DNA from: a virus
DNA: 37,505 bases
Reading direction: 5' to 3' (one strand)
IMG/VR virus record: IMGVR_UViG_3300024520_000223
Span: 1-37,505 of that record
Both the position numbers and the translations under genes were made by a program. Position 1 is the first letter of the stretch; every line of letters begins with the position of its first letter. The notes below the pieces were generated by a model. That model was not told the DNA's origin, searched no databases, and saw nothing but the letters and a program-made list of their open reading frames with translations. Positions 21,383 to 35,339 of this stretch are shown here, piece after piece.

Positions 21383-24343
21383 ATGAGTGACAATTTGATC
21401 ACGCAGACAACTGTGTCAACAGTACCGAGCGGCAGCGTTATAGCAACAGAGGATATAGGCTCTGCTCATTATCAAAAAGTCGTAGTTGCATTAACCGACG
21501 GCACAACAATCAACGGCTTGCTTGACGTTGGGCAGTTGGCAATGGCGGCATCTATTCCCGTCGTCATTGCCTCCGATCAATCTTCGATTACCGTTGATTT
21601 ATCAGCAACCGATAACGCGGTATTAGACCAGATTGAAGTTAATACCAGTTATGGAGACAACACGGGCGGCGGTGTTGAAGCTGGTTCATTGCGAGTTACG
21701 TTAGCAAATGACTCAACGGGATTACTATCTGTAGACGATAACGGCGGATCGTTGACGATTGATAACGCTGATATAACCACCATCGCAGGTGCGGTTTCTG
21801 GCTCTGAAATGCAGGTGGACGTAATAACATCTGCCCTGCCCACGGGTGCGGCAACAGCAGCTAACCAGTTGGCAGACGGTCATAACGTGACGATTGACAA
21901 TGCCTCTGGCGGTTCGGCCGTCAATATTCAAGACGGTGGAAATTCGATTACAGTTGATAATGGCGGTACGTTTGTGGTACAGGAAGATGGTGCAGCTTTA
22001 ACCGCCTTGCAATTGATAGACGACGCGGTAGCTACGCTAGGGACTTCTACTTATTCAGAAGCAACAACCAAAGGAAATATCATTGGTGCGGTTCGCAATG
22101 ACACATTGGCCGCACTCGCAAATACAGATAACGAGATTGCACCTTTGCAGGTAAACGCCTCTGGCGCACTATACATTCAGGAAGGCACGGCACTAGATGT
22201 AAGTGGGGCAACGGTAATAGTAGACGGGTCTGGGGTTACGCAGCCAATAAGTGCGGCAAGTTTACCGTTGCCAAGCGGGGCAGCTACAGCGGCGAATCAA
22301 TCCACTGGTAACACAAGCCTGTCAACTATTGCGGGGGCGGTTTCTGGCACCGAAATGCAGGTCGATGTTTTAACGATGCCATCGACGGCCGTTACCAACA
22401 CAGGTACTTTTGCGGTGCAAGAGGATGGCGCGGCATTAACGGCTTTACAGTTGATTGATGATACCGTCTATACCGACGATACAAGCACACATGCCACCGG
22501 AACCAGCAAAGGGCTGGGCATGATGGCGGCAGCAACGCCAACCGATGGGTCGGTTGATGCAAATGACATTGGGATGCTTTCCATGTCAACCGACAGACGG
22601 CTGTTAGTTGATTCTCAAATTGTAGGCACGGATGCGGCTCTTGACGTAAGCGCGGCAACGGTAACGGTTGACGGCTCGGGGGTTACGCAACCAATAAGCG
22701 GAACAGTTACCGCTAATCTATCGGCAACTGACAATGCAGTTTTGGATCAAATAGAAGTCAATACCAGCTATGGAGACAACACGGGCGGCGGTGTTGAGTC
22801 CGGCTCGTTGCGGGTTACGTTAGCAAATGATTCAACGGGATTACTATCTGTAGACGATAACGGCGGATCGTTGACGATTGATAACGCTGATATAACCACC
22901 ATCGCAGGTGCGGTTTCTGGCTCTGAAATGCAGGTGGACGTAATAACATCTGCCCTGCCCACGGGTGCGGCAACAGCCGCTAATCAATTGGCAGATGGTC
23001 ACAATGTAACTGTTGATAATGCCTCTGGCGGTTCGGCCGTCAACATTCAAGACGGTGGTAATTCGATAACGGTTGACAATGGTGGTACGTTTGCCGTTCA
23101 GGTTGACAACATGGGGAGCGCGGTTGATACCAATAACTCAACTACAACGCCATTAGGGGGCAGTGCAACTTACACCGGAACCGGAACCGATATGTTGGGA
23201 TATGCCGCCGTTGCCATTACGCTATACGCCGATGTGGACAGCGCGACCGATGGCATGACGTTTCAATTTAGCACGGATAACACAAATTGGGATGATATTT
23301 ATACCTTTACGATGGATGTCTCCGCCAGCGATACGCGACGTTTTCAATTCTCCGTAACGGCTCAATATTTTAGAGTCGTTTATACCAACGGCGGCGGTGC
23401 ACAATCTGCATTTAGAGTACAAACAATTTTGCACACGGTTGACATTGACACGTCAATCCACAGGTTGGTTGATAATGTATCGCCTGACAGATCGGCAAAT
23501 GTTGTTAAATCGGCACTCATTGCACAGGCAGCGGGATCGGGCAATTTTGTACCAGTGGCGGCGACGTCAGGCGGCAACCTGAAAATGTCTGTACAAGAAT
23601 TTTCAGACGGGGTTGACGTTGGCAATGGGGCGGTAGGTTCTGAAACATTACGGGTCACGATTGCAAGCGATAGCACGGGTCTGATTTCTGTTGACGACAA
23701 CGGAGGTAGCCTCACAGTTGACAACGCAGCCCTAAGCATCGCGGGCGGCGGGGTTGAGGCTTCAGCTTTGCGTGTGACGTTGGCAAGCGACAGCACAGGG
23801 TTGTTGTCAGTCGATGATAACGGCGGATCATTGACGGTTGACGGTACGATTACGGCTAGTAATGCGGCGGGTGATGTAGCCCACGATGCGGCTGATTCTG
23901 GAAATCCCATCAAAACGGGCGCAAAGGCGGTCAACTTTGACGGCACGGCTCCAGGAACGGCCGTGGCAGAGAATGACAGAGTAAATCATATTGCTGATGT
24001 TTACGGCCGTCAATTTGTGGAAACGGCACACCCCAACCATTGGCATGTTTCGGCAGATTACGCAAGCGCACAAACAAACACAACCGTCAAGGCCGCACCA
24101 GGGGCAGGGCTTAAACTATACATTACCGACATTGTAATTAGCAATGGGGCAACGGCTGGAAATATTACGTTGCTTGACGGTTCCGGTGGATCGGTTGTGT
24201 TTGAATTATACCCAGCAGTCAGTGGCGGGGCAGCTATGCCATGGAGAACGCCGATTGATCTAACTGCTAATACGCTATTGGCAATTACCAGCACGACAGT
24301 AACAACACACTCAGTCACGATTAGCGGATACACGGCTCCATAA
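21383..24343 (+). CDS. Repetitive fibre-like virion protein (986 aa)
   Basis: This acidic Gly/Ser/Thr/Asp-rich protein is built from repeated strand motifs: SLRVTLANDSTGLLSVDD and GGSLTIDNADITTIAG appear in a long repeat at residues about 73-200 and again at about 446-572, with shorter partial copies near 750-830. A different globular C-terminal domain (from about residue 890: VKAAPGAGLKLYITDIVISN through TITSTT-like strands) ends the protein and resembles the jelly-roll tips common in environmental phages. It is likely a tail fibre or surface appendage that binds the host. RBS GAGGATAATATT. Confidence 0.65.
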   Translation: MSDNLITQTTVSTVPSGSVIATEDIGSAHYQKVVVALTDGTTINGLLDVGQLAMAASIPVVIASDQSSITVDLSATDNAVLDQIEVNTSYGDNTGGGVEAGSLRVTLANDSTGLLSVDDNGGSLTIDNADITTIAGAVSGSEMQVDVITSALPTGAATAANQLADGHNVTIDNASGGSAVNIQDGGNSITVDNGGTFVVQEDGAALTALQLIDDAVATLGTSTYSEATTKGNIIGAVRNDTLAALANTDNEIAPLQVNASGALYIQEGTALDVSGATVIVDGSGVTQPISAASLPLPSGAATAANQSTGNTSLSTIAGAVSGTEMQVDVLTMPSTAVTNTGTFAVQEDGAALTALQLIDDTVYTDDTSTHATGTSKGLGMMAAATPTDGSVDANDIGMLSMSTDRRLLVDSQIVGTDAALDVSAATVTVDGSGVTQPISGTVTANLSATDNAVLDQIEVNTSYGDNTGGGVESGSLRVTLANDSTGLLSVDDNGGSLTIDNADITTIAGAVSGSEMQVDVITSALPTGAATAANQLADGHNVTVDNASGGSAVNIQDGGNSITVDNGGTFAVQVDNMGSAVDTNNSTTTPLGGSATYTGTGTDMLGYAAVAITLYADVDSATDGMTFQFSTDNTNWDDIYTFTMDVSASDTRRFQFSVTAQYFRVVYTNGGGAQSAFRVQTILHTVDIDTSIHRLVDNVSPDRSANVVKSALIAQAAGSGNFVPVAATSGGNLKMSVQEFSDGVDVGNGAVGSETLRVTIASDSTGLISVDDNGGSLTVDNAALSIAGGGVEASALRVTLASDSTGLLSVDDNGGSLTVDGTITASNAAGDVAHDAADSGNPIKTGAKAVNFDGTAPGTAVAENDRVNHIADVYGRQFVETAHPNHWHVSADYASAQTNTTVKAAPGAGLKLYITDIVISNGATAGNITLLDGSGGSVVFELYPAVSGGAAMPWRTPIDLTANTLLAITSTTVTTHSVTISGYTAP
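21601..21980 (+). repeat. First copy of a ~380-bp intragenic repeat
   Basis: This segment of the fibre gene is repeated at about 22720-23099. A 146-base core (21713-21858) is identical base for base to the second copy, while the flanks of the repeat differ mostly at codon third positions. Confidence 0.9.
22720..23099 (+). repeat. Second copy of a ~380-bp intragenic repeat
   Basis: This is the partner of 21601-21980. The identical core is 22832-22977. Outside the core the protein sequence is conserved but the codons differ, so the core appears to have been homogenised recently. Confidence 0.9.
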
Positions 24344-28575: not shown

Positions 28576-31074
28576 ATGGTTACTTCGTTTCACGTTGGGA
28601 TTGGTGGCAATAAAGACGGTATCGGGCAATGGATGCGTTCTCTAAACGATGCTGGTATCCCCTTCCCGCTTAAATCCGTTGACGAATACGGCGTATTATT
28701 TGAGGCATTGACGGTTGGCATCGAGCGCAATATTACCAACTGGCTTGTCTACCGCATGAGTGAATTTGAACACAGCGCGGCGGGCGTGCGAGAAACGCCC
28801 GACTATACCCTCCCCCCCTACGATGCGGCCGTTAAACATTGGCTACCTATCGAAGCTGCCCTCCCTCCTGAGTTTGATAAGATGGCCGTTTACATAGAAC
28901 CGTTTAACGAAATCCGCATGAAAAAATCGCCCGACGATGTGCAATATAAGGATATGAACGCCGCCGACTGGATGGGTGAATGTTGTTATCATCTGGCGAC
29001 ATTTGCCAATGAACGTGGGTATAAGGTTGCCTTGCCAGCGATTAACAGCGGGGAACCTGGCGAAAAAGACGCTGGCATGATGGATGTCGTCACTCAGTAC
29101 AGTCAACCGGGGATGCTAAAACTCATCGCCTACGCCGCCGAACATCCTGATATGTGCCTCCTGTCAATTCACGAGTACATTTGGGACAGATATTTGCATG
29201 AGGATGAATCGTGGGCAGACTGGTATCCATATTTATTTGGGCGTTTTGAGGGGTTGATAGCCGCCGCTGACAATGCGGGGATACCACGGACATTCAAGTG
29301 CATTGTAAGCGAGTGGGGATTTGACCGCGAAAAAGCACCGCGCTGGAATGAGGCCAAGCCGATCATAGAACAATACACGGCATGGATGGTACGATGGGCG
29401 CAAATCATCGTCGGCACTACCGCTTGGACATTACAAAACGGAGAGGGCGGGGTTGACAATGACGTACAGACATGGATAGAGCCACTCATCCATTACACGA
29501 TATATGAACGGCCGTTACCCGCCGAACAGCCGCAAATCACACATGAATTATTTGGATCCACCCTACCGCAACAGGAGAAACCACCGATGATTAACACGCA
29601 AACAATAGACATCCCTGAGGATGCTACAAATTTTGAGATTGGCATTGTAAACAAAAGCGGGGAGATTATCGACCCTACGATATTTTATGATGGCGAAAAC
29701 CTCCCTATTCAGATCATGGTTACTAGCACACTGAGCGGCGAGATACCGCCGCCACAATTCCCCGCTATTGTCCCAAATGCTTTAGGTGTCGATGTGTCCG
29801 CTCATCAGGGCAAATTTGATTGGGAAACGGCCGTTTCCAATGGTGTCACCTATGCCATTATCAGATCATCAAATGGACTAGGCAGTACGTCAACAGATCA
29901 AAACGGCCGTGACGAACAGCTATTCAGAAACGCAGGTAGATTGACGGAGCGAAATATGCCGTGGGCAGTCTATCACTTTTTGCAGGATGGGCAGAGCATT
30001 GTCAAACAGGCGGAACTTGTCAATGATATTCTGGCAGAATTAAAGGCATTGCATATGTATCCAAAAACGGCCGTCTTTAACAATGGCGTGACATTGCCAA
30101 CGCTGTTTATTGACGTTGAAAAGGCGACATTGACACCCGATCAAATTAAACTATTTGCTGATAATATCCCGTTTAGATACGGCATCTACACACGTAAATC
30201 ATTATGGAATCCTATCATGGCAGGAACGGCCGTTTGGTGGGAAAATATTTGTTGCTGGGTAGCTGCATATGGTAAAAACGATGGCAGTGTTCCGCCGTGG
30301 AAACCTGGAACGCCATATGGATTTAAGCGTAATACAATTTGGCAATACACAAGTCAGGGCGGGCATATCATCGGCTCAACCGCTGGCCTGGATTTGAATA
30401 TAGCAACCCCATTTGAACAGGAAACCGAACCGCCTGACATTGACCCCCCTACTGGCAAAACATACGATTTGTTGGGCTACATGATGGGCGACGGCCGTTT
30501 ATTCGAGTTCCAGCTATCTGATGCCAACAGAAACGCCACAAACCAAGAGCGCAATCAAACGCAGTCTGAGGGTGAATTATTTTATATTGTCAAGGGGGAG
30601 AATCAGGGCGTGTGGGAGCGATACCATTACAATGACGAATACATTTTACAAGATACGGATACATCACCAGCCAACGCCAGCGACGGTACAGAACGATATT
30701 ACCAAGTGCGGAGAGCGGATGGCGTGACTCTGGTTCCGTATACCAAACGACATATGAAAATTGGCGAGAAGTTTATCGGTTCCCCCCACTGGGTACAATT
30801 CTACAGAAAATCAGATTGTGAGCTGCATCCTGAAAACAGCGGTGAAGCCACAAATGTGACGACGCTAATTGCTCATTATGATTTTTATGAATTTGATAAA
30901 TTAACAGTTGCAGATGTAGTTGTGGTTGAGTCGGGCGGAGAAACACACTGGTTTGCACGGGGATACGGCCGTGTCGCCTGGTATTCAATCTGGGGTAATG
31001 CTGAAATCAGCGAGGAGCATGCGCCAGGGCAACGGCCGGATATAGTGAGGGAGGTTATCGGGTGCTTGGATTAG
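28576..31074 (+). CDS. Two-domain endolysin: clan GH-A-like glycosidase plus GH25 muramidase
   Basis: This 832-residue protein has an N-terminal TIM-barrel-like domain (about 1-310) with catalytic-type glutamates at E112 in EPFNE and about E246 in SEWGFD, spaced as in clan GH-A. A linker leads to a GH25 lysozyme domain (about 403-600) with DVSAHQGKFDW, FIDVE (about 510) and WQYTSQGG (about 588) followed by DLN. GH25 enzymes cut the sugar backbone of peptidoglycan. A C-terminal domain of about 200 residues of unknown type may bind the cell wall. There is no signal peptide, so export likely depends on the holin-like protein. Its 3' end overlaps a convergent gene by 20 bases. Confidence 0.85.
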   Translation: MVTSFHVGIGGNKDGIGQWMRSLNDAGIPFPLKSVDEYGVLFEALTVGIERNITNWLVYRMSEFEHSAAGVRETPDYTLPPYDAAVKHWLPIEAALPPEFDKMAVYIEPFNEIRMKKSPDDVQYKDMNAADWMGECCYHLATFANERGYKVALPAINSGEPGEKDAGMMDVVTQYSQPGMLKLIAYAAEHPDMCLLSIHEYIWDRYLHEDESWADWYPYLFGRFEGLIAAADNAGIPRTFKCIVSEWGFDREKAPRWNEAKPIIEQYTAWMVRWAQIIVGTTAWTLQNGEGGVDNDVQTWIEPLIHYTIYERPLPAEQPQITHELFGSTLPQQEKPPMINTQTIDIPEDATNFEIGIVNKSGEIIDPTIFYDGENLPIQIMVTSTLSGEIPPPQFPAIVPNALGVDVSAHQGKFDWETAVSNGVTYAIIRSSNGLGSTSTDQNGRDEQLFRNAGRLTERNMPWAVYHFLQDGQSIVKQAELVNDILAELKALHMYPKTAVFNNGVTLPTLFIDVEKATLTPDQIKLFADNIPFRYGIYTRKSLWNPIMAGTAVWWENICCWVAAYGKNDGSVPPWKPGTPYGFKRNTIWQYTSQGGHIIGSTAGLDLNIATPFEQETEPPDIDPPTGKTYDLLGYMMGDGRLFEFQLSDANRNATNQERNQTQSEGELFYIVKGENQGVWERYHYNDEYILQDTDTSPANASDGTERYYQVRRADGVTLVPYTKRHMKIGEKFIGSPHWVQFYRKSDCELHPENSGEATNVTTLIAHYDFYEFDKLTVADVVVVESGGETHWFARGYGRVAWYSIWGNAEISEEHAPGQRPDIVREVIGCLD

Positions 31075-31345: not shown

Positions 31346-32164
31346 TTACTCATAGGTAAACAAATCATCATTATCCCCGTATTCCTCTTCCCAATCGGGG
31401 GATGGGGGTGGTTCTAACAATGGCTGGCTTGAGACTTCTTCCGTTTCTGCATCGTCGTTAAATTCCAAAATACGTATATTGCTTGGCTGCTTGCTGGCAA
31501 AATTCTCATTAATCAGACTGAGGGCGCGGTATACATCCTGCTCTGCTCGTTTGTTTGCCACCCACTCCCATGTTCGGCCGTTTGGCGGATCAATGGGGTC
31601 GCCCTTTGCCCTGCTTTTGGTTGCCTTTCTGGCGACCATATCCGCCTTTTTGATGACACCGATCCCCGTTCTACATACCATCTGTTGAGCAACTAGCCAG
31701 GGGACGCCCGATTCAACTAATTTCAGATACTCGCTCAGGCGGTACGCTTTGCAAATTGAAGCGACGTCACCAGCTAAAATATGGTACTGCTGCCGTTCCT
31801 CGCCTACCATTGTACGCGGTTCATAAACGCGCCGCGTCTGGTCGGTGTCCTCATTGTCAATATACCAGATGGGTGTATCAACTTCCCGCGCCTTGCGTCG
31901 CCAGAAAGCAATTCCCAACATGACGACATTTTTCCCCTTCCAGTCCTTCCAAATATGAATTTCCCCCGTTGTCGGCAGGGGATTAGCCCCCGACATAATA
32001 GCCAACTGAGCGGCTGCAATCATACCGCTCTTGCCTACATCTTCATAGGCGGGATGAAATGCCATCATGCGATCTGATAATTCCCTAATCTCATTACGCT
32101 CCCCGTAATTCGCCAATGCCGTACCGTCTACCTTTTCTAATGCCTGCGTATTATTTTCACTCAT
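31346..32164 (-). CDS. RecT/Bet-like DNA annealing protein candidate (272 aa)
   Basis: The start is ATG 32164, which has GGAGG 5 bases upstream; in-frame ATGs at 32176 and 32188 lie inside the previous gene and have none. The core has AAQLAIMSGANPLPTTGEIH followed by VVMLGIAFWRRKARE, then an LSEYLKLVESGVPWLVAQQM helix and an ADMVARKATKSRAKGDPIDP region, ending in an acidic Pro-rich tail. The G-x-NPL-x-GEI pattern resembles RecT/Bet-type annealing proteins that pair single strands in phage recombination, and an acidic C-terminus is typical of proteins that contact partners. The family call is tentative. Confidence 0.5.
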   Translation of the reverse strand: MSENNTQALEKVDGTALANYGERNEIRELSDRMMAFHPAYEDVGKSGMIAAAQLAIMSGANPLPTTGEIHIWKDWKGKNVVMLGIAFWRRKAREVDTPIWYIDNEDTDQTRRVYEPRTMVGEERQQYHILAGDVASICKAYRLSEYLKLVESGVPWLVAQQMVCRTGIGVIKKADMVARKATKSRAKGDPIDPPNGRTWEWVANKRAEQDVYRALSLINENFASKQPSNIRILEFNDDAETEEVSSQPLLEPPPSPDWEEEYGDNDDLFTYE

Positions 32165-32165
32165 G

Positions 32166-32432
32166 TTATCCTCCATAGATTGACGCATCGTTTACCGTCG
32201 CGTCATAATCCTGCTCAATTAACATCTCGTCCAATTCGACTGGCGGAAGCAAATCTTTGATCTTTTGCTCTGCCTGTTCTACATAAATAACCGCTTCAGT
32301 ATCTTTTTGAGCATACTCTCTTAGGGCTTTGAGTTCCCGCTGATAATGATTTGCCCATCGTGCCTTGTATGCCCTTTGTTTGGTTGTTCCTGTGAATTGA
32401 CTTGCAACGTAGTGATGTGTTACTGTTGTCAT
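32166..32432 (-). CDS. Hypothetical helical protein (88 aa)
   Basis: The protein is basic in its first half (TTKQRAYKARWANHYQRELK) and acidic in the second (EQAEQKIKDLLPPVELDEML). Ribosome binding site ACAGGAGAAATCAC. It overlaps the start region of the annealing-protein candidate, suggesting joint function in recombination or replication. Confidence 0.55.
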   Translation of the reverse strand: MTTVTHHYVASQFTGTTKQRAYKARWANHYQRELKALREYAQKDTEAVIYVEQAEQKIKDLLPPVELDEMLIEQDYDATVNDASIYGG

Positions 32433-32509: not shown

Positions 32510-32537
32510 ATTATACACATTTTGGACTGTTTGTCAA
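32510..32537 (-). promoter_or_regulatory. Promoter of the - strand recombination operon
   Basis: On the - strand, TTGACA (32532-32537) and TATAAT (32510-32515) are 16 bases apart, both perfect. Start near 32503, giving a 5' leader of about 70 bases with the hairpin 32457-32484. Confidence 0.75.
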
Positions 32538-32574
32538 GTCGGCTTTACGCAGAGGGACATTGCCCTTGACAAAC
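32529..32574. repeat. 10-bp inverted repeat covering two divergent -35 boxes
   Basis: GTTTGTCAAG at 32529-32538 is the exact reverse complement of CTTGACAAAC at 32565-32574. Each arm holds the TTGACA box of one of the two divergent promoters, so a single regulator could bind both. Confidence 0.7.
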
Positions 32575-32594
32575 TATGTAATATCCATTAGTAT
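32566..32594 (+). promoter_or_regulatory. Divergent + strand promoter for the small regulator
   Basis: TTGACA (32566-32571) is 17 bases from a weaker -10 (TAGTAT, 32589-32594). The expected start falls within a few bases of ATG 32602, so the transcript may be leaderless or nearly so. Confidence 0.55.
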
Positions 32595-32601
32595 AGAGGG
32601 C

Positions 32602-32850
32602 ATGAGTAATGAAAAAGTATTAAAAAATGACATTGCCTATATTTTAGGCATAACTCGCCAGTATTTTTATATGCTAGGGCGCGATGGGGTTTTATCCAGT
32701 GGTGATATAACCGTTAGTGAGTTACAAACAATCGTGTCTGAGTTTGTCAAAATTAAGCAAATGCGACTGGATAAGGAAAAGGAGCAAATTGAGCGGCGGC
32801 TCAAGATAATTCAGCAGCGATACACACCCAAGCTAGAAGTAACTATGTAG
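32602..32850 (+). CDS. Small HTH-like regulator (82 aa)
   Basis: The ATG at 32602 was chosen because the reading before it overlaps the divergent promoters. Residues about 10-35 (AYILGITRQYFYMLGRDG) look like a helix-turn-helix of a Cro/YdaS-type protein, and the C-terminal half is a charged coiled coil (RLDKEKEQIERRLKIIQQR) suitable for dimerisation. As the first gene from a divergent promoter pair whose -35 boxes lie in an inverted repeat, it is a plausible autoregulator of the lysogeny or early switch type. Confidence 0.55.
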   Translation: MSNEKVLKNDIAYILGITRQYFYMLGRDGVLSSGDITVSELQTIVSEFVKIKQMRLDKEKEQIERRLKIIQQRYTPKLEVTM

Positions 32851-32883
32851 GATTATCCGCATCGTCGGGATACTTGTTCCCTC

Positions 32884-32988
32884 TTATCCCTCCCCCTCTT
32901 GACTGGCGATGCGATCATCAATTTTGTTGTGGGGCTGCCTACCTTCTCTGGCGGCTTCACAGCAAAGCGGGTGATGTAGTCCGCTTAT
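32884..32988 (-). CDS. Possible 34-aa micro-ORF with AUA start
   Basis: On the - strand, an ideal ribosome binding site (AAAGGAGG) is followed 6 bases later by ATA 32988, which begins an open frame reading ISGLHHPLCCEAAREG and ending TAA at 32884. The frame looks protein-like, and a CC-E-A-A-REG motif is typical of short phage proteins. AUA is not a usual start. It may be a mutated or mis-sequenced ATG, or the site may be chance. Confidence 0.3.
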   Translation of the reverse strand: MSGLHHPLCCEAAREGRQPHNKIDDRIASQEGEG

Positions 32989-33080
32989 TGTTTACCTCCT
33001 TTTTGTTGAGGGGGCGGTTGAGATGACGGCCGTTCCCCCATTAAGGAGTAGTCTACTTTGGAGTATGTAACGTGAAATCA

Positions 33081-33155
33081 AGCCAGTGAGTCACAAAATT
33101 GTCAAGCAGACTTGTCTGCAACGGTGGCAACCATCTGCAATTGATGGCACTGGCT
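33081..33155 (+). ncRNA. tRNA-sized, tRNA-like module in the large RNA
   Basis: An 8-bp acceptor-like stem (AGCCAGTG with CACTGGCT) encloses exactly 75 bases. The 3' half is a 5-bp stem with a 7-base loop (CCATC, TGCAATT, GATGG; 33131-33147) placed directly against the acceptor stem like a T arm, and TGCAATT keeps the T-loop pattern U...A. The middle hairpin (33106-33119) has a 4-base loop, so there is no usable anticodon and this is not a functional tRNA. Confidence 0.5.
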
Positions 33156-33250
33156 CATGGGTATATACCGATTTTTGATGGTACGTGATCTGCAACACGC
33201 CCCTTTGCGGAGATGTTTCCGGATCATCGCAAAACCGGATTTAACAACAC

Positions 33251-33393
33251 GCCACCGGTGGCGAAAGTGGTCGCCACAATACCACCTGAGACTGAACGAG
33301 ATTTGACGGCGAAAGTCAGATAGAAAGCCGCTCGGCTCTACTCAAGGTCTGATGGATTTACCAGTTGGTTCGGTTCGACTCCGGCCGGTGGCT
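33251..33393 (+). ncRNA. Second tRNA-like module with expanded central domain
   Basis: GCCACCG (33251-33257) pairs with CGGTGGC (33386-33392) as an acceptor stem. A D-arm-like hairpin follows (33258-33277, loop AAAGTGGT), and the 3' end has the loop TTCGACT (33374-33380), a perfect T-loop sequence, on a partly paired stem. The region between, where an anticodon arm belongs, is replaced by a branched domain of about 65 nt (33284-33348 with two hairpins). It is not a normal tRNA. Confidence 0.45.
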
Positions 33394-33768
33394 CACACTG
33401 CGGAAACCATGACCGCCGTGTAAAACTATCCCAAATTGGTGACAGCCGGAGAGTACGGCATTACAGTATGGTTGGGTACATTTACCGCTGTTCTTAGGAA
33501 ATGCCAGTGGACGCTACTTAGTGCGAGTGGGGATGGCGACTTGCGACCGCCATCTTAAATGAGCAACGTTAAACCGCCCATATTAACAGAATAATAGCGG
33601 CATAAGAAACGGACTATGCAAAATCTCATGCGGGAGATTCAAGAGGCGTCGGCCACACTGTCTCCGAGTGCAAGCGAGTGTACATAGCTGGATAGGAGTA
33701 TACGCAGCCAAATTAGCGACTGGCCTATTATTCTGTTTTTAATACCTTTCCTTGCAGGAGCGATTGAA

Positions 33769-33993
33769 ATGTATACACTTGAACTTGCGAACTGTGAACA
33801 AATACTGCTGGATGAGATTGCCGACAAGGCGATGAGGCAAAAAGACGTTGCCCAGAGCTATGCACTGGCAATACTGTCTAGCGAAAAGCCTGACTGGATA
33901 GTTGTGAATAGGGCTATCATAGGACGCTGGTCACATTCAGGATTACAGCGCATAAAAAGGATGGCGTGGTCTGGTAAATGTTTTGATGATTAA
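33769..33993 (+). CDS. Small hypothetical protein (74 aa)
   Basis: The protein is helical (ELANCEQILLDEIADKAMRQ, DVAQSYALAILSSEKPDWIVVNRAIIGRW) with a basic C-terminal part ending KRMAWSGKCFDD. Ribosome binding site GCAGGAGCGATTGAA. It begins 30 bases after the closing helix of the structured RNA. I do not recognise the family; the helical core could be DNA-binding. Confidence 0.6.
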   Translation: MYTLELANCEQILLDEIADKAMRQKDVAQSYALAILSSEKPDWIVVNRAIIGRWSHSGLQRIKRMAWSGKCFDD

Positions 33994-34305: not shown

Positions 34306-34332
34306 TGGTGTCTGTGAGCCACCGAAGCGGCT
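34306..34332 (+). promoter_or_regulatory. Leader element copy 1 (hairpin before gene at 34354)
   Basis: The segment TTGGTGTC...GAGCCACCGAAGCGGCT (34305-34332) closely repeats 34681-34707. AGCC/GGCT and inner pairs form a small hairpin, about 20 bases before a ribosome binding site. The repetition ahead of two consecutive genes suggests shared regulation. Confidence 0.5.
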
Positions 34333-34680: not shown

Positions 34681-34717
34681 TTGGTGTGATGAGCCACCGA
34701 GGCGGCTAAATTTTTTT
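34681..34717 (+). promoter_or_regulatory. Leader element copy 2 with T-run
   Basis: This is the second copy of the leader element (34691-34707 GAGCCACCGAGGCGGCT), here with a better-paired hairpin and followed by seven T residues at 34711-34717, so it can act as an intrinsic terminator or attenuator immediately ahead of the LexA-like gene. Confidence 0.6.
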
Positions 34718-34731
34718 GGGGAATGGAAGTG

Positions 34732-35127
34732 ATGGATGAAAACAAGTACGAAAGGGCACCGTGCGTGAAATGCGGAGGAACATGGTTTTATAAAAGCCAT
34801 AATAGTTGCGTTGCCTGCAATAGGTTAAGATCGCGCAAGTGGCACCATAATAACTATGTATCAGTTGGTATATATAGAAAATACGATACGGATGATATTT
34901 TGAAATTCATCATTGATTCATGGCAAGAAAATGGGTTCCCCCCGACAATTAGGGAGATATGTCGCGGATGTAACATCTCATCGACAAGCGTCGTGTCCTA
35001 TCATTTGGATATTTTGGAAAGGCGCGGCGAGATAGAGCGCAATCCGGCCGTGTCTCGTGGGATTCGATTGTGTAACTGGCGTGTTGTTTTGGAGCCAGTA
35101 GCACAAGAGAAACTTTTGACACCATAA
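34732..35127 (+). CDS. Zinc-ribbon plus LexA-like winged-helix protein (131 aa)
   Basis: ATG 34732 has GGGGAA 8 bases upstream; ATG 34723 is a second option. Residues 11-29 carry C-x2-C and C-x2-C (CVKCGG, CVACN), a zinc ribbon. Residues about 55-113 follow the LexA N-terminal wing-helix pattern: ILKFIIDSWQENGFPPTIREI, then SSTSVVSYHLDILERRGEIER and RGIRL. There is no self-cleaving peptidase domain after it. It probably binds LexA-like operators, either as a repressor or as a competitor of host SOS control. Confidence 0.7.
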   Translation: MDENKYERAPCVKCGGTWFYKSHNSCVACNRLRSRKWHHNNYVSVGIYRKYDTDDILKFIIDSWQENGFPPTIREICRGCNISSTSVVSYHLDILERRGEIERNPAVSRGIRLCNWRVVLEPVAQEKLLTP

Positions 35128-35145
35128 CGTCAAATTTAGTATAAT
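35116..35145 (+). promoter_or_regulatory. Perfect consensus promoter for a structured RNA
   Basis: TTGACA (35116-35121) and TATAAT (35140-35145), spacing 18. Both hexamers are perfect. Expected start 35152-35153 coincides with the first base of helix 1 of the RNA below. Confidence 0.85.
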
Positions 35146-35151
35146 GTAGGA

Positions 35152-35318
35152 AGCTCGTAGGGATGGCGAACCTACAGATGAGCATTAAAAATAAGAGTGT
35201 GCGGCATCATACAAGGCATCTACCTTGTGCGCTGCGGTTTACCCCTACCAATTAGCCGTTGGTAGCTATTAAATCGCACACTCGCTTAAACCGCAGCGCA
35301 CAGAGCAGATGTTTTTTT
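35152..35318 (+). ncRNA. Pseudoknotted RNA of about 167 nt, or cis-regulatory leader
   Basis: Helices: H1 35153-35156/35180-35183 with 35157-35161/35171-35175; A 35195-35203/35275-35283 (9 bp); H2 35211-35216/35223-35228; B 35226-35241/35287-35302 (16 bp); H3 35245-35251/35259-35265 (7 bp, 7-base loop). A and B interleave, so the fold is a pseudoknot, and H2 and B share three bases, so they compete. A run of seven T at 35312-35318 follows. The gene at 35340 starts 22 bases later behind GGAGG, so the RNA may act in trans as a separate molecule or in cis as an attenuator. Confidence 0.7.
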
Positions 35319-35339
35319 GTTACCTATCGGAGGAAAGCC

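Follow-up and report, generated by a model that had tools for sequence, protein, structure and literature searches.

The genome of the virus recorded in IMG/VR as IMGVR_UViG_3300024520_000223 (37,505 bases, hereafter referred to as the window) contains a stretch of 918 bases (positions 32851-33768) without any ORF of at least 70 amino acids on either strand, raising the question of whether a large structured RNA is encoded there. This stretch is the largest gap of a gene-dense phage genome of ~49 kb; the runner-up within the window spans 404 bases, and none of the gaps in an additional 11.9 kb exceeds 350 bases. These 11.9 kb, missing from the window, are supplied by a second contig, IMGVR_UViG_3300024518_000002 (49,347 bases), which is circularly permuted relative to the window and corresponds to the same virus (99.96% identity across 12.2 kb). 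The gene-free stretch is identical in both contigs, which argues against an assembly error.

The source virus is a tailed phage, with genes encoding a large terminase, a GH25 lysin domain, a LexA-type DNA-binding protein, a primase, a replication initiator, a DnaB-like helicase, a DNA methyltransferase and RusA. No integrase gene was seen, and the 49 kb relative yielded neither a tyrosine nor a serine recombinase domain (controls positive in 14/14 and 10/14 genomes). We take the (T/A)TPTP-rich linkers of one phage protein as a hint of a Chloroflexota host. According to the ORF list only, positions 21383-24343 encode a 986 amino acid protein with long internal repeats, in what is presumed to be the tail/structural region. 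On the minus strand, positions 31346-32188 encode a 280 amino acid protein that is reminiscent of RecT-type annealing proteins, although it matched nothing in Pfam, PHROGs or phage records.

The first-pass annotation had described a gene-free stretch of about 900 bases, and our analysis bears this out. Besides lacking ORFs of the above length, positions 32851-33768 show no 3-base periodicity (0.4-1.6, versus a genome median of 3.3), have dense stop codons in all frames, and gave no Pfam match in six-frame translations with stops masked. This is a real gap, non-coding by every test made.

The best evidence for a functional plus strand RNA fold at this locus comes from a 5' structured domain located at positions 32851-33065 (z = -4.85 on the plus strand and -1.03 on the minus strand). 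For the slightly longer segment 32851-33075 the value was -4.77, and 0/200 shuffles folded as well. The core of this domain is a long hairpin (32914-32975) whose 18 + 6 bp include several G-U pairs, and the region around it (32909-32982) reached a z of -5.76 on the plus strand and -0.63 on the minus strand; the asymmetry arises because the G-U pairs form only in the plus strand RNA. A structured plus strand RNA is therefore likely within the first 215 bases of the gap. The interval originally proposed, 33075-33740, begins 3' of this domain and misses the strongest strand-specific structure, so that its boundaries were wrong. When the complete region is folded, the z is -4.1 for 32851-33745 (20 shuffles) and -2.0 for 32851-33740 (60 shuffles).

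Taken alone, positions 33075-33740 fold at chance level. Their minimum free energy differs little from the values obtained for dinucleotide shuffles (z = -1.5 against 20 shuffles and -1.1 against 200, 26 of which were as good), and local 120-nt windows average a z of -0.29, compared with -0.26 elsewhere in the window. Folding of the minus strand scored as well as that of the plus strand, or better. The first-pass annotation had counted at least 14 nested helices over about 660 bases, a claim that stands as far as the ~1.5-fold enrichment of short perfect stems over shuffles is concerned and is not confirmed at the level of the overall fold. Specifically, 20 perfect short-range stems of at least 5 bp were found, versus 13.4 ± 3.4 in shuffles (7/200 reach this number), and 30 under a looser loop limit, versus 18.3 ± 4.2 (0/120), although some of the small chance values given here are optimistic, as a single sequence was examined for several features. 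It should be noted that the proven ROOL RNA of the L. salivarius plasmid pMP118 has a whole-fold z of -1.5 and no stem enrichment, so that a weak z neither supports nor refutes an RNA of this kind.

Individual elements within this interval are better defined. The 13-bp helix reported near its 3' end is present as an inverted repeat, AACAGAATAATAG/CTATTATTCTGTT, at positions 33585-33597/33725-33737, and exceeds what was found in all 200 dinucleotide shuffles of one test; in another, 1/120 shuffles reached a helix of at least 13 bp. This helix closes a 3' domain (33585-33740, plus strand) with pairing probabilities of 0.77-1.0 and a whole-domain z of -2.0 on both strands. The T-run said to follow is also present (TTTTT), but the arms of the helix are separated by 127 nt, and no terminator-like site was called near 33740. 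At the other end of the interval, a three-way-junction-like domain (33081-33155, plus strand) is closed by AGCCAGTG/CACTGGCT and includes the hairpin GCAGACTTGTCTGC, with a pairing probability of 0.99 (33083-33153) and a local z of -2.9 (33075-33155). A possible H-type pseudoknot, read from the sequence alone, combines CATTT/AAATG with CCGCTG/CAGTGG at positions 33479-33510 of the plus strand. An internal repeat of ~134 bases was also tested and rejected.

In the middle of the gap, ARAGORN with introns allowed detected a tRNA-like cloverleaf (33251-33394, plus strand) at 95% of its default threshold. This element comprises an acceptor of 8 bp (GCCACCGG/CCGGTGGC, 33251-33258/33385-33392), a D-like arm (33260-33275) and a T-arm (33369-33385) with the loop TTCGACT, placed directly 5' of the 3' strand of the acceptor, and the acceptor and D-arm have pairing probabilities of ~0.9. 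A 64-nt insert sits in the anticodon loop. Matches of this level occurred in 0/300 shuffles on the plus strand and in 1/300 on both strands. Against a tRNA-like module, CCA is not encoded and the element was not reported at the default threshold; moreover, the window holds one further match of the same level (28750-28829, minus strand), making the cloverleaf only suggestive. Positions 33386-33397 are complementary over 12 nt to a hairpin at 34313-34324, a match that chance could explain. No tRNA or tmRNA gene was found in the window (ARAGORN, default settings) or in the missing 11.9 kb, unlike the tRNA islands in which GOLLD and ROOL are usually set; this sub-threshold cloverleaf is the only tRNA-like element near the candidate RNA.

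Regarding transcription, the only good plus strand promoter found upstream is a sigma-70-like TTGACA-17-TAGTAT (32566-32594), with 10/12 consensus matches; promoter-like sites in this region are as numerous as expected by chance, so that it counts as a consensus match and not as functional evidence. It precedes an ORF of 82 amino acids (32602-32850, plus strand), located directly upstream of the candidate RNA, which has no Pfam match and whose sole IMG/VR relative belongs to the same virus. No promoter-like site was called between this ORF and position 33075, and a weak terminator-like site is located at 32965-32986. The candidate RNA is probably co-transcribed with the 82 amino acid ORF or processed from that transcript.

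Several other regulatory elements were observed around this locus. Positions 32510-32594 carry divergent promoters, TTGACA-16-TATAAT on the minus strand (12/12) and the TTGACA-17-TAGTAT described above on the plus strand (10/12), which separate a minus strand gene pair (32432-31346) from the plus strand genes ahead of the RNA, an arrangement that looks like an early control region. Further downstream, two near-identical hairpins, TGAGCCACCGARGCGGCT, follow short genes at 34315-34332 and 34690-34707, the second then followed by a T-run; both are probably terminators. Finally, positions 35116-35318, 1.4 kb downstream, likely correspond to a small RNA or leader attenuator (RNA at ~35152-35318), a cleaner candidate, with a perfect promoter (TTGACA-18-TATAAT, 35116-35145), a strong fold (35150-35325; z = -4.3, 0/200 shuffles) and a terminator hairpin (35226-35241/35287-35302) followed by TTTTTTT. 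A 9-bp helix in it (35195-35203/35275-35283) would make a pseudoknot or switch with the terminator hairpin, and Rfam gave no family at cut-off for 35116-35318.

Our preferred reading, to which we assign a probability of about 0.45, is that positions 32851 to ~33740 encode a single plus strand structured non-coding RNA of ~0.9 kb with a tRNA-like module. Such an RNA would be produced from the promoter at 32566 on a transcript shared with the 82 amino acid ORF, or released from that transcript by processing, and would be arranged as a strong 5' domain (32851-33065), a middle part with a tRNA-like cloverleaf whose anticodon arm is expanded (33251-33394), and a 3' domain with the 13-bp helix (33585-33737). 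We infer its transcription, its ends and its unity as one RNA rather than several elements, as well as its function. During infection, it would most likely work as a scaffold or decoy that is stable and made of RNA only, as could be the case for GOLLD and ROOL, and its tRNA-like part might interact with ribosomes, with enzymes of tRNA processing or with aminoacyl-tRNA synthetases. Against a single RNA are the chance-level fold of 33075-33740, equal on both strands, and the lack of a close promoter of its own, of a terminator near 33740, of an Rfam match and of a homologue.

The closest competitor, possible and less probable than a single RNA, confines the functional RNA element to 32851-33065, where it could serve, for example, as a 3'-UTR stabilizer or as a processing or termination structure of the 82 amino acid ORF transcript, leaving the remaining 700 bases as spacer, DNA sites and chance helices. 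The confinement of the strand-specific fold to this domain, the weak terminator-like site within it and the chance-level fold of 33075-33740 are all in line with this explanation. However, a spacer of 700 idle bases would be unusual for a phage, and the 13-bp helix, the stem enrichment and the cloverleaf all lie in the 3' part.

To look for homologues of the candidate RNA, we performed blastn searches, which found none, whether among phage and plasmid records or among 50 virus records related by their terminase; the best chance matches in two other records fell inside protein genes. Apart from the terminase itself, the terminase-related records have little in common with this phage and are consequently poor sources of homologues, and a 733-base gap in a related phage (5020-5752) turned out to contain unrelated, partly repetitive sequence. 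Scanning IMG/VR with three 16-mers gave about as many matches as expected by chance, none of them extending along the candidate RNA, a 28-mer recovered the same virus only, and a 20-mer had no match among the GTDB genomes; such scans sample short exact words only, and diverged relatives may exist. Neighboring proteins used as bait retrieved the same virus only, and with the capsid one short relative, 83% identical and without this region, was retrieved, while GTDB genomes yielded no prophage. Covariance models, each built from the single sequence of the 5' or the 3' domain, recovered nothing but the domains themselves. Since no homologue was found and the second copy is identical, the helices of the candidate RNA are predicted from a single sequence. 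This narrow distribution, one identical virus without relatives in the collections searched, together with the dense stops in all frames, would suit a decayed protein gene or a functionless sequence of recent acquisition. We consider this unlikely, given that no frame matches Pfam with stops masked, that residual 3-base periodicity is absent and that the fold is strand-specific.

The locus had also been compared with the large RNAs GOLLD, ROOL, HEARO and OLE. Of these, ROOL and GOLLD form homo-oligomeric RNA cages. Rfam cmscan at gathering thresholds found no family in either the window or the remainder of the genome, none of these four appeared at E ≤ 10 in 32850-33800, and dedicated searches with the ROOL (RF03087) and GOLLD (RF02032) models were empty at E ≤ 10; a positive control was made for ROOL only, the RF03087 model scoring 130 bits on the genuine ROOL of pMP118. 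A large structured RNA is plausible from the lack of coding signal, the strand-specific 5' fold, the 13-bp helix and the cloverleaf, whereas membership in a known family is unsupported.

In GOLLD RNAs, a variable linker connects the 5' and 3' regions and sometimes holds tRNAs (PMC12286853), and ROOL RNAs, of ~500-660 nt, are found in phages, prophages and a megaplasmid and have many short helices and pseudoknots (PMC12286853, PMC5643018). The candidate RNA resembles GOLLD in being large (>800 nt) and phage-borne and in having a tRNA-like part in its middle, which recalls the GOLLD linker (PMC12286853), but it differs in having no RF02032 match, no genuine tRNA nearby, no homologues, and its better supported domain at the 5' rather than the 3' end. 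A layout with a cloverleaf in the middle is worth noting beside GOLLD by analogy, and homology between the two is unsupported. With ROOL it shares the phage context, the many short helices and the weak whole-fold z, yet the RF03087 model does not recognize its helix layout. Likewise, tmRNAs and intron-bearing tRNAs have an acceptor stem, a T-arm and an enlarged insert replacing the anticodon arm; the candidate, in contrast, has no Rfam or default ARAGORN match, lacks CCA, has an insert of only 64 nt and a D-stem, and its cloverleaf is embedded in a far longer candidate RNA. That the candidate is a GOLLD or ROOL too diverged for the Rfam models is very improbable despite the similar size, the phage context and the tRNA-like part reminiscent of GOLLD linker tRNAs (PMC12286853), as neither model matches at E ≤ 10 and real tRNA genes are absent nearby.

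We suggest, as a rather doubtful extension of the single-RNA reading, that this locus defines a novel class of phage RNAs of ~0.9 kb, which would have no sequence relationship to GOLLD or ROOL and would carry a tRNA-mimicking cloverleaf in the middle. Least probable of all, and hardly credible, is that the tRNA-like piece represents the core of an attP site, copied from a host tRNA gene at its 3' end: the T-loop TTCGACT followed by CGGTGGCT resembles a tRNA 3' end, but no recombinase domain of the tyrosine or serine type was found in the 49 kb relative and the 5' acceptor strand and D-like arm, unneeded by such a core, are also present.

Judging from the comparison with ROOL, whole-length folding energy may serve poorly as a filter for large phage RNAs, because even a proven member of that family lies only a short way outside its shuffles. 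To our knowledge, only a handful of classes of very large structured RNAs have been described in phages, none of them with a settled function. A further, unrelated class, if true, would provide an independent case for inferring what such RNAs do, and an embedded tRNA mimic, if true, would bear on whether they act on translation.
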